Both the position numbers and the translations under genes were made by a program. A stretch of 64,000 nucleotides of DNA from NCBI GenBank assembly GCA_021787735.1, contig JAJYLL010000007.1:23724-87723 (forward strand), written 5' to 3'. Position 1 is the stretch's first letter. Every line of letters begins with the position of its first letter. This document shows positions 17,799 through 42,347 of this stretch, one piece after another. The notes below the pieces were generated by a model that did not search any database, was not told the origin of the DNA, and worked only from the letters and a program-made list of their open reading frames with translations. The stretch is from Acidobacteriota bacterium (lineage in GTDB: Bacteria; Acidobacteriota; Terriglobia; UBA7540).

Positions 17799-18461
<663 letters not shown>

Positions 18462-18879: not shown

Positions 18880-19536
18880 CTACAGCGATTTCTTTGAGAA
18901 GTACCAGTCTTTGGTCTCAAAGCCTGCTCTCATGCGTTCTTCAGCGGCATCCGTGGTCGCCGGTGGAGGAACGATGACCTTCTCGCCGGGTTTCCAGTTT
19001 GCCGGAGTCGCCACGCCGTGCTTGTCGGTGGTTTGCAAAGCGTCAATCAGGCGAAGAATCTCCTGCATGTTGCGGCCGGTCGTCAAAGGATAGTAGATCA
19101 TCGCGCGGAGAATGCCGTTGGGATCGATCACAAAAACACAGCGGCTTGTTTCCGTCTTGCTTTCTCCGGGCATGATCATCCCGTACAGTGTCGCCACGTT
19201 CTTATTCAGATCTGCAATCACGGGGAAAGGAATCTTCACGCCAAACTTCTCCTCAATGTTCCGAACCCACGCGATGTGCGAATAGGTACTATCGATGCTC
19301 AATCCGCACAGTTCGACGTTACGTTTCTTCAGTTCCGGCGCCAGTTCAGCAAACGCAACGAATTCCGTTGTGCACACAGGTGTGAAATCCGCTGGGTGCG
19401 AGAAAAGAATCAACCAACTGCCCTTGAAGTCTTCCAGGCGCAGCATCCCATGCGTTGTCGGGGCTTCAAAAGCCGGTGCAGGCTGCCCCAAGCGAGGAAA
19501 GCCGGGAGCGACCATTTCCTGAGTTGTCGTGTCCAT
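18880..19536 (-). CDS. Prx6-type (1-Cys-like) peroxiredoxin
   Basis: LFSHPADFTPVCTTEFVAFAELAPEL with the peroxidatic Cys present as a normal Cys codon; C-terminal VIVPPPATTDAAEER. Confidence 0.93.
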   Translation of the reverse strand: MDTTTQEMVAPGFPRLGQPAPAFEAPTTHGMLRLEDFKGSWLILFSHPADFTPVCTTEFVAFAELAPELKKRNVELCGLSIDSTYSHIAWVRNIEEKFGVKIPFPVIADLNKNVATLYGMIMPGESKTETSRCVFVIDPNGILRAMIYYPLTTGRNMQEILRLIDALQTTDKHGVATPANWKPGEKVIVPPPATTDAAEERMRAGFETKDWYFSKKSL

Positions 19537-31812: not shown

Positions 31813-32271
31813 CTACAGTTTCAGCGCTGCCAAAACCTGTTGGATGTGTCCATCCACTTTTACCCGTGGGAACACAGCCTTCACCTTACCCTGAGGATCG
31901 ATAATGTAAGTCGACCTAACAATTCCCATGCTCTTTTTGCCGTAAAGGGTTTTCTCCTGCCATGCCCCGTAAGCTTCAAGCGTCTTGTGGTCAGCGTCGC
32001 TTGCAAGAGGAAAGTTCAGACCATGCTTATTACGAAACTTCGCCAGCTTCTCAGGCGAGTCGGCGCTCATCCCCAGGACTTTGGCACCAAGCCTATCCAG
32101 ATCTCTTTTGGCGTCACGAAACTCGTGTGCCTCCCGTGTTCAACCAGGAGTGTCAGCTTTCGGGAAAAAATAAAGGATCAGGGTGCTGTCTTTGAAATCG
32201 CTCAGTTTTACCGGCTTGCCAGAATCTGACGGAAGTGAAAAACTCGGAGCCTTATCTCCAGTGTTCAGCAT
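31813..32271 (-). CDS. Selenocysteine-containing peroxiredoxin (BCP/PrxQ type), UGA at 32140-32142 read as Sec
   Basis: The two ORF-track fragments are in one frame: MLNTGDKAPSFSLPSDSGKPVKLSDFKDSTLILYFFPKADTPG[TGA]TREAHEFRDAKRDLDRLGAKVLGMSADSPEKL... TGA is at the peroxidatic Cys position of the PKDDTPGCT motif. RBS GAGGAG; SECIS-like hairpin 17 nt after UGA; selC in the same window. Confidence 0.9.
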
Positions 32272-39967: not shown

Positions 39968-40062
39968 TGGCGGAAGTGTGTCGGAATCGAACCGACCGAT
40001 CCACCAGAGGCAGATCCACAGGATTTGAAGTCCCGGGCGGACACCAGCCCACATGCACTTCC
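39968..40062 (-). tRNA. selC: tRNA-Sec (anticodon UCA)
   Basis: GGAAGTGCATGTGGGCTGGTGTCCGCCCGGGACTTCAAATCCTGTGGATCTGCCTCTGGTGGATCGGTCGGTTCGATTCCGACACACTTCCGCCA. GGAAGTG/CACTTCC acceptor, anticodon loop CTTCAAA, long variable arm GATCTGCC/GGTGGATC, T-arm GTCGG-TTCGATT-CCGAC, encoded GCCA. Layout matches E. coli selC. Confidence 0.95.
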
Positions 40063-40071
40063 GTATTGATA

Positions 40072-41221
40072 CTAAATGACTTGCTGATCGCGGTCAACAC
40101 CAGCCTCTTCCGCCGTAGTAGGAACCGTAGCTAATAAGGCCTGGTTCGGAGCTTCTGAGACCTTTTCGCGGCCCTTTGCATTCATGGCCTCCAATCGCTG
40201 AATAGCCAGCCCAAGAGCCTCGGCGGACGGATGCAAGTATTTTTGCCTGACTGTCACCGTGTGGAGTGTCCAGCAAGCTTCATAATGCTAAATGCGTCCG
40301 CCCCAGCTTCGCCCAACCGCGTCAAGGCGGTATGTCGCAGCGAGTGAATCACGGCATCGGCAGGGAGCTTCATCGCGCGGCGAATCTTAACGTGCTGGTC
40401 CCTCAGCATGAACCTAGATAATGGCGCTGCTCCTGATTCATCTGTGAATACAAAGATTGCCTTGCTCTCGGTCTGGCAGGTTTCAAGCATTGACCGGACA
40501 CGGCTCGTAAGTGGGATGAAGCGGCGCGCGTTGACCATCTTGCCGCGACGGATACACAAGAAACCATGAGGCGCACCTGGCGCTGCCGAAAGAGCCACAA
40601 CCCGCCATTCTAGGACCAGCACTTCACCTACCCGAAGCCCCGTATCGACCATCAAGACGGCGGCATCCTTCAAAGGGTCAGGGGCAAACTCAAGATAAAT
40701 CCGCTCCTGCTCCCCTGACAAGACAAACTCCGTGTCCTTTCGCCAGGCAGCATACTGATACGCGGCACACGGTTAATAATCCGCCATTCCTGGGCGAGCC
40801 TCAAGGCTTTCCGCAGCGTAGCAAGTTCACGGTTTACGGATGCCAGGCTGATCGGCTTGTCATTATGAAGCACGGCCCGCCGATGCTGTACGTAGCTTGC
40901 AATCATGGCTTCGTCAATTTGCTCAAGTCGAGCTTGGGCCAGGGGTGTGAACTCCAACAGCCGATCTAGCTTTGAAAAGTAAAATTCTACGGTTGAAGGT
41001 TTCGCGGCGCACTGTGTTTCAACCGACTTGCGGAACTGGTCGGCAAATTCCGTGAAGGCTGGAACCACCTTACGTTCCCCAATCCCTATCTCCCCCTTGG
41101 CAAGTGCAGAGCGATAGGCGGCTTCCGCGTCCATAGCCGCCTGTATGTTCTTCTTTGGCCCAACCCGGAGTTTAGTAGAGCGTTGGAATTGACCGGACGG
41201 AATTTTTTGTACCAAACTCAA
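40072..41221 (-). pseudogene. Tyrosine recombinase/integrase, disrupted by two frameshifts
   Basis: Reading order 41221-40670 (SAM-like core-binding domain), then 40721-40254 (DTGLRVGEVLVLEW...IHSLRHTALTRLGEAGADAFSIMKLAGHST), then 40257-40072 (VTVRQKYLHPSAEALGLAIQRLEAMN); three frames form one integrase. Confidence 0.85.
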
Positions 41222-42110
41222 GGCGAGTTTTCGGCTGTTTCCGACCCCATGAGATCGCCGCTAGCGGCGATCTCATGGGCGAATTCGTTCGGTGTCCTCT
41301 CCCCGAGAGCCCTGTGAGGACGGCTCTCATTATTCTCCCTTCGCCAGGCTTCGATGGTCTCTTTGGCCTCTCCCATGGCGCCGAACCAATGCGTGTCCAG
41401 GCACTCGGCCCGCAGCGTCCCGTTGAAGCTTTCGATGTAGGCCTTGTCAGTTGGCTTGCCCGGCCGGCGGAAGTCGATCTTCACTCCGTTCTGATACGCC
41501 CACCGGTCCATGATCTGACTGGAGAACTCCGATTCATTATCACAAAAAAGCATCCTGGGCGCTCCACGCCACGCACGGATCCGATTCAGCACCTCGACCA
41601 CGTGAGTCCCTTTCAGTGACGGTCCGACTTCAACCGCCAGACTTTCCCGGGTGAACACATCCACGGTCGTCAGCACCCTGAACCGTCGCCCGTCGGTCAA
41701 CGGGTCCGCCCTAAAGTCCAGGCTCCAGATCTGGTTGGATCGTGTGGGCCGAACCCGCTCCCGCCCATGCTCCGCCGCCCGGCGGCGTCGTTTCGGCCTT
41801 TGTTCAAGCCCCAATCCTTCTTCTTTGTACAATCGCTGCATGCGTGATTTCCCAACTCCCCAACCCTCCCGGTTCAGCAGCGCCCGGATCTTGCCATACC
41901 CCTAACGCACTCGCGCCTGGGAGATCTCCCGAATACGCTGCCGCAGCGATACCCAGGCATTTCCCCGGCTCCGGTACCGATACGTCCCGCGGTGCAGGCG
42001 CGTCACGCGACACGTTCGCCGCTCGCTGACACCATAGCCCTTGCACAGGTACTCCACCACCGGACGGTACCGCGAGGGCTTCAGAACTTTTTTGACAGCA
42101 CATCCTGCAG
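41218..42110 (-). pseudogene. IS3-family transposase OrfB (rve/DDE), interrupted by in-frame TAG
   Basis: ISQARVR[TAG]GYGKIRALLNREGWGVGKSRMQRLYKEEGL, then WSLDFRADPL, CDNESEFSS, ESFNGTLRAECL; upstream part reads the same frame. Upstream boundary approximate. Confidence 0.8.
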
Positions 42111-42347
42111 CGTGGCCTTGTCCAGCGTCAGGTCCGCCACCAACCTTTTCAGACGCGTATTCTCCTCCTGCAATTGCTTCAACTCCCGGACCTGATCGAC
42201 TTCCAAACCTGCATACTGCTTCTTCCAGCGATAGAAAGTCTGCTGCGAAATCCCCGCTTTACGAATCAGCTCAGCCACCGGAATCCCCAGTTCCGCCTGC
42301 TTCAAAATCGCTACGATCTGTTCAGCAGAAAATCTCCTTTTCTTCAC
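42081..42347 (-). CDS. IS3-family transposase OrfA (HTH_Tnp_1)
   Basis: MKKRRFSAEQIVAILKQAELGIPVAELIRKAGISQQTFYRWKKQYAGLEVDQVRELKQLQEENTRLKRLVADLTLDKATLQDVL. Confidence 0.93.
   Translation of the reverse strand: MKKRRFSAEQIVAILKQAELGIPVAELIRKAGISQQTFYRWKKQYAGLEVDQVRELKQLQEENTRLKRLVADLTLDKATLQDVLSKKF

Follow-up and report, generated by a model that had tools for sequence, protein, structure and literature searches.

The stretch of DNA analysed here (64,000 nucleotides, hereafter the window) carries, according to ARAGORN, a single tRNA gene, namely a tRNA-Sec gene (selC, anticodon TCA) on the minus strand. Directly 5' of it, on the same strand, lie the remains of a tyrosine integrase gene, and IS3-family transposase genes adjoin the N-terminal end of this pseudogene (Table 1). 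Elsewhere the window holds two peroxiredoxin genes and an aquaporin frame interrupted by a UGA codon. The window is part of contig 125 of a 4.87-Mb assembly (Acidobacteriota, class Terriglobia), and the selenocysteine machinery was searched in this same assembly. One neighbouring gene has its named relatives among Acidobacteriota and Terriglobia.

Table 1. Features of the window bearing on selC and on the reading of UGA codons
Feature	Position	Strand	Basis
Aquaporin (MIP) frame with UGA at 18224-18222, selenocysteine candidate	17799..18425	-	Pfam MIP, 106 bits across the UGA
BCP-type peroxiredoxin, selenocysteine codon UGA (32142-32140) replacing the peroxidatic Cys	about 31813..32271	-	Family search; end read from the frame
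selC, tRNA-Sec, anticodon UCA, encoded GCCA	39968..40062	-	ARAGORN, Rfam RF01852, comparison with 22 related selC genes
Putative selC promoter TTGACC-17-TAGTAT, 6 nt before the tRNA	40069..40097	-	Sequence reading
Tyrosine integrase pseudogene	40072..41221	-	Pfam Phage_integrase and SAM-like domains; fragments aligned to an intact relative
IS3-family transposase genes (rve, HTH_Tnp_1 parts)	41218..42347	-	Pfam rve_3, rve, HTH_Tnp_1

The sequence-only reading of the window had placed a selC gene of 95 nt on the minus strand, and ARAGORN returned it with exactly the same coordinates. The Rfam model of the selenocysteine tRNA (RF01852) matches at 40062-39972 over all of its 91 positions (68.4 bits, E 7.7e-12), well over the gathering threshold of 47, and this is the single match in the window from a scan with all 4227 Rfam families. 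The arms proposed earlier were all recovered on the reading strand: acceptor strands GGAAGUG C and A CACUUCC, an anticodon loop CUUCAAA, a long variable arm, a T arm GUCGG-UUCGAUU-CCGAC and the encoded GCCA. The acceptor consists of seven standard pairs plus a C-A, which together with the 5-bp T stem make a 13-step acceptor/T stack, and the D stem of 6 bp carries a loop of 4 nt (UGGU). The gene is similar to E. coli-type bacterial selC genes (RF01852) in its length, its UCA anticodon, its encoded GCCA, its D arm, its long variable arm and its 13-step stack, and differs from them at acceptor pair 8, where this gene has C-A, and its family C-A or C-U, instead of a standard pair. Judged by its sequence, it does encode a selenocysteine tRNA, and is ordinary as tRNA genes go. 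A selC gene over the cut-off was present in 35 of the 41 genomes searched in the family and the class, and a VWA protein (92-93% identical) is the common downstream neighbour of selC in L015, L022 and L026.

The C-A at the eighth acceptor pair, already pointed out in the earlier reading, is indeed there on the reading strand, and the gene does not have eight standard acceptor pairs, a feature that is not defining for the Rfam family. One might take this pair as a mark of decay of selC, but the comparison with 22 related selC genes of the class rules this out: the pair is C-A in 13 of them, C-U in 5, and G-G, A-A, G-A and C-G in one each. Since a standard pair is missing at this position in 21 of the 22 genes, we consider the C-A as a trait of the lineage and not as a defect.

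The three other genes of the selenocysteine system were said to lie outside the window, and we found them all in the same genome, on other contigs and over curated cut-offs: selA on contig 66 (591 bits), selB on contig 50 (357 bits) and selD on contig 172 (372 bits). We counted mainly high-scoring matches over the cut-offs, because the tRNA and SelB models also match weakly in control genomes without selenocysteine. The selD gene contains one internal in-frame TGA, a feature shared by nearly all selD-bearing relatives, and a hairpin loop occurs 19 nt after the UGA in the SelD of relatives; selD genes with their own selenocysteine codon are known from other bacteria too. The claim that UGA is recoded in this organism is well supported, because selA, selB and selD accompany selC in the genome and selD is a selenoprotein gene with a UGA of its own. 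As in the bacterial SelA-SelB-SelC-SelD system, all four genes are found in one genome over curated cut-offs; the differences are that they are scattered over contigs rather than gathered in a single cluster, and that selD has a selenocysteine codon. In such a system SerRS would load serine onto the tRNA-Sec, SelA would convert Ser-tRNA to Sec-tRNA with selenophosphate provided by SelD, and SelB would bring the Sec-tRNA to UGA codons with a downstream hairpin, such as those of SelD and of the window peroxiredoxin. In one relative (L155; G007, C258, 13544-18182) selC, selD, selA and selB do sit together in a single cluster, whose SelA is more divergent and whose SelD lacks UGA; this cluster possibly came from elsewhere.

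The selenocysteine previously proposed for a peroxiredoxin was also borne out by our analysis. This BCP-type protein reads ADTPGU where solved BCP-type relatives have TPGC, which puts the UGA at the peroxidatic site, and a SECIS-like hairpin with a 3-nt loop (GUU) lies 17 nt after the UGA. A hairpin at this spacing is what is expected of a bacterial SECIS. The window contains a selenoprotein gene having both an in-frame UGA and a downstream hairpin. Hairpin energy by itself could not tell true sites from Cys controls, nor could minimum-energy folds scored by shuffle z-scores set true SECIS sites apart from the background. An ordinary Cys enzyme, with no UGA, is encoded by the second peroxiredoxin gene (18880-19536). 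Several further genes of the AhpC/TSA family, each with a single in-frame TGA, were seen on contigs 9, 12, 100 and 154 of the window's genome (G000), two of them adjoining each other on contig 9, and this genome is possibly rich in selenoproteins. With selC and the full machinery confirmed, UGA codons in this genome must be read as possible selenocysteine codons, and standard annotation will therefore truncate its selenoproteins.

The UGA of the aquaporin frame is more difficult to interpret. It lies shortly after the first NPA motif, at a position where the subfamily usually has Cys: Cys is found in two homologues of 67-68% identity and Leu in one of 75%, and in some 80 further homologues the residue is mostly Cys, otherwise Leu, Thr, Val, His, Ile, Met, Ser or Ala. 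The sequence-only reading had regarded this codon as another possible selenocysteine. What stands of this suggestion is that selC makes selenocysteine possible and that the site is mostly occupied by Cys, while the existence of selC does not show that selenocysteine is inserted there. We lean slightly towards the view that the UGA arose by simple nonsense mutation or is an assembly error, unconnected with selC. Indeed, a UGA at this site was seen in no other genome searched and in none of these some 80 further homologues, Cys is frequent yet not required, and in a constrained SECIS scan the best hairpin was not distinctive, a stronger one being present at the same place in 6 of 30 Cys homologues. 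This view has nevertheless to account for the fact that, out of about 46-49 single-base changes per aquaporin gene that would give a stop, only one is at this Cys codon, and the UGA falls on precisely this mostly-Cys site. Moreover, the frame remains open for 140 codons past the UGA, its downstream part looks constrained in comparison with L041 (dN 0.18, dS 1.47), and selenocysteine is used elsewhere in the genome. The proposal that selC serves, among others, a selenocysteine-containing aquaporin is one that we make with real doubt; a literature search for such an aquaporin returned nothing relevant. If true, it would mean a selenium-bearing membrane channel, and selenocysteine at that site would perhaps render the channel redox- or peroxide-sensitive. 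In another aquaporin homologue (L042; G056, C47, 88093-88716), one TAG was flagged in the whole-genome search, perhaps located immediately upstream of the start codon.

The integrase remnant 5' of selC was absent from the earlier reading and is new here. Its pieces, distributed over three frames, show 42-54% identity to an intact relative of 390 aa; the N terminus is missing, and there are frameshifts near 40730 and 40260. The last codons (GVDRDQQVI-stop) run up to the tRNA gene, with the stop TAG (40074-40072) 9 nt before selC, and this TAG also supplies the first three bases of TAGTAT, which is probably the -10 box of selC. The same promoter layout (TTGACG-17-TAGAAT) is found in the integrase-free relatives L153 and L154. 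A search for partial copies of selC by 12-mers, in the window and the surrounding stretch, gave only a 14-mer in a coding gene (21691) and a 12-mer (14890), both of which we take as chance matches and not as a distal copy of selC. Because no displaced 5' copy of selC was found in the window or in the rest of the upstream stretch searched, the element of the window is recognised by its integrase end only.

An integrase occurs at the same place 5' of selC in three other genera (L009/L150, L015/L151 and L021/L152), and it is intact in L151 and L152. What is observed in relatives is an element located between an exact copy of the first 40-45 nt of the tRNA and the intact tRNA, with the end of the integrase gene directly before the latter. 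In L151, an exact 43-nt copy of the 5' part of selC lies 10,333 nt upstream, delimiting an element of about 10.3 kb whose cargo includes a DnaG-type zinc-ribbon/DUF927 protein and a helix-turn-helix protein; in L152, the copy is of 45 nt, 12,269 nt upstream, and the element of about 12.3 kb. Both distal copies begin one base before selC, extend to its anticodon stem and are each preceded by their own promoter, TTGAC(C/G)-17-TA(A/G)AAT. Elements at tRNA-Met (L187, L188 and L193) likewise have exact 40-41-nt copies of the 5' part of their tRNA, 5.7-7.6 kb away, which brings to five the relatives' elements with a displaced 5' tRNA fragment at their far end. The layout with the promoter inside the integrase gene is not universal: the integrase gene of L152 already stops 18 nt short of the tRNA, and the -35 box of its element-side promoter is weak. 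Among the 30 best integrase loci from 399 genomes of the class, 17 end between -22 and +34 nt from the start of a same-strand tRNA gene (Sec, Leu-TAA, Met-CAT, Thr, Lys or Ser), and intact integrases of the window integrase's own clade are found directly before tRNA-Sec, -Leu and -Met in relatives.

It could be argued, from the missing distal repeat in the window, that the integrase is only a chance neighbour, unrelated to selC. We find this very improbable: four genera of the family share an integrase with this position and strand, related integrases adjoin other tRNA genes in a like manner, and the exact 5' tRNA copies at the far ends of five elements mean that, for the relatives, a chance neighbourhood is already refuted. 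Hardly credible at all is the hypothesis that selC is a relic, impaired by the integrase event and by the C-A mismatch, in an organism where UGA is not recoded, since the two observations that it can invoke (the C-A itself and the integrase pseudogene right at the promoter) are opposed by the nonstandard pair 8 of nearly all related selC genes, by promoter boxes and spacing that agree with those of integrase-free relatives, by selA, selB and selD frames that are intact except for selD's own selenocysteine UGA, and by several peroxiredoxin genes with a single in-frame UGA. The best joint explanation, which we hold with strong confidence, is that the selC of the window is functional and that an integrative element has left its scar on the 5' side of the gene.

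The repeats, the gene order and the overlap between the integrase stop and the -10 box suggest a mode of integration in which the element would take over the promoter of its target. The integrase would recombine in the anticodon arm of the tRNA, the predicted junction of the L151 and L152 elements being located within CTTCAAATCC. The 3' half of the host tRNA would then be joined to the 5' half brought by the element, along with the element's promoter, which would be situated in or beside the final integrase codons. The tRNA would thereby stay intact, and the old 5' half, together with the old promoter, would be displaced to the far end of the element. The flank of selC in the window would be the wreck of such a mobile element, of a rare type entering tRNA genes from the front; with its integrase dead, selC would now depend on the promoter left behind by the element.

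Islands entering selC are familiar from enterobacteria, where they (for instance LEE) integrate at the 3' end of the gene and leave its promoter untouched. The elements described here are alike in that selC is the integration site of a tyrosine integrase, and different in that the 5' half of selC and its promoter appear to be replaced. We found no description of reversed integration at selC in a literature search of partial coverage, and nothing relevant on selC integrases in Acidobacteria. That elements can integrate into the 5' part of a tRNA gene is itself known, and such cases are described as considerably rarer than integration into the 3' part (PMC6563490, citing Zhao and Williams 2002). 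Set against this citing description, our elements resemble the 5'-integrating ones in recombining with the 5' part of a tRNA gene, and differ in that their targets include selC, that the window copy is dead and that, in several cases, the integrase stop lies within the -10 box of the tRNA. The scar 5' of selC is a further example of this rare, already known type of integration. tRNA-dependent lysogeny involves no rebuilding of the tRNA, a spare one being carried by the phage (PMC10865867), whereas elements of the window type would rebuild it.

In these bacteria selC would be used by mobile elements that replace its promoter and the 5' half of the tRNA; as a consequence of such a take-over, the expression of the whole selenoproteome can depend on the DNA of an element. 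An integrase clade found at several tRNAs, with a promoter in the last integrase codons, makes the tolerance of 5'-side integration directly testable. In the integrase tree, one supported branch, of 20 rows, gathers 16 of the 18 tRNA-adjoining rows (one of these 18 being counted by a wider distance limit); its four remaining rows comprise two that have long branches and the usual layout, and two that lack a tRNA. This tree does not oblige the reversed layout to have arisen only once. Finally, the rows adjoining selC are not grouped together in it, which suggests that selC was probably entered more than once by elements of this kind.
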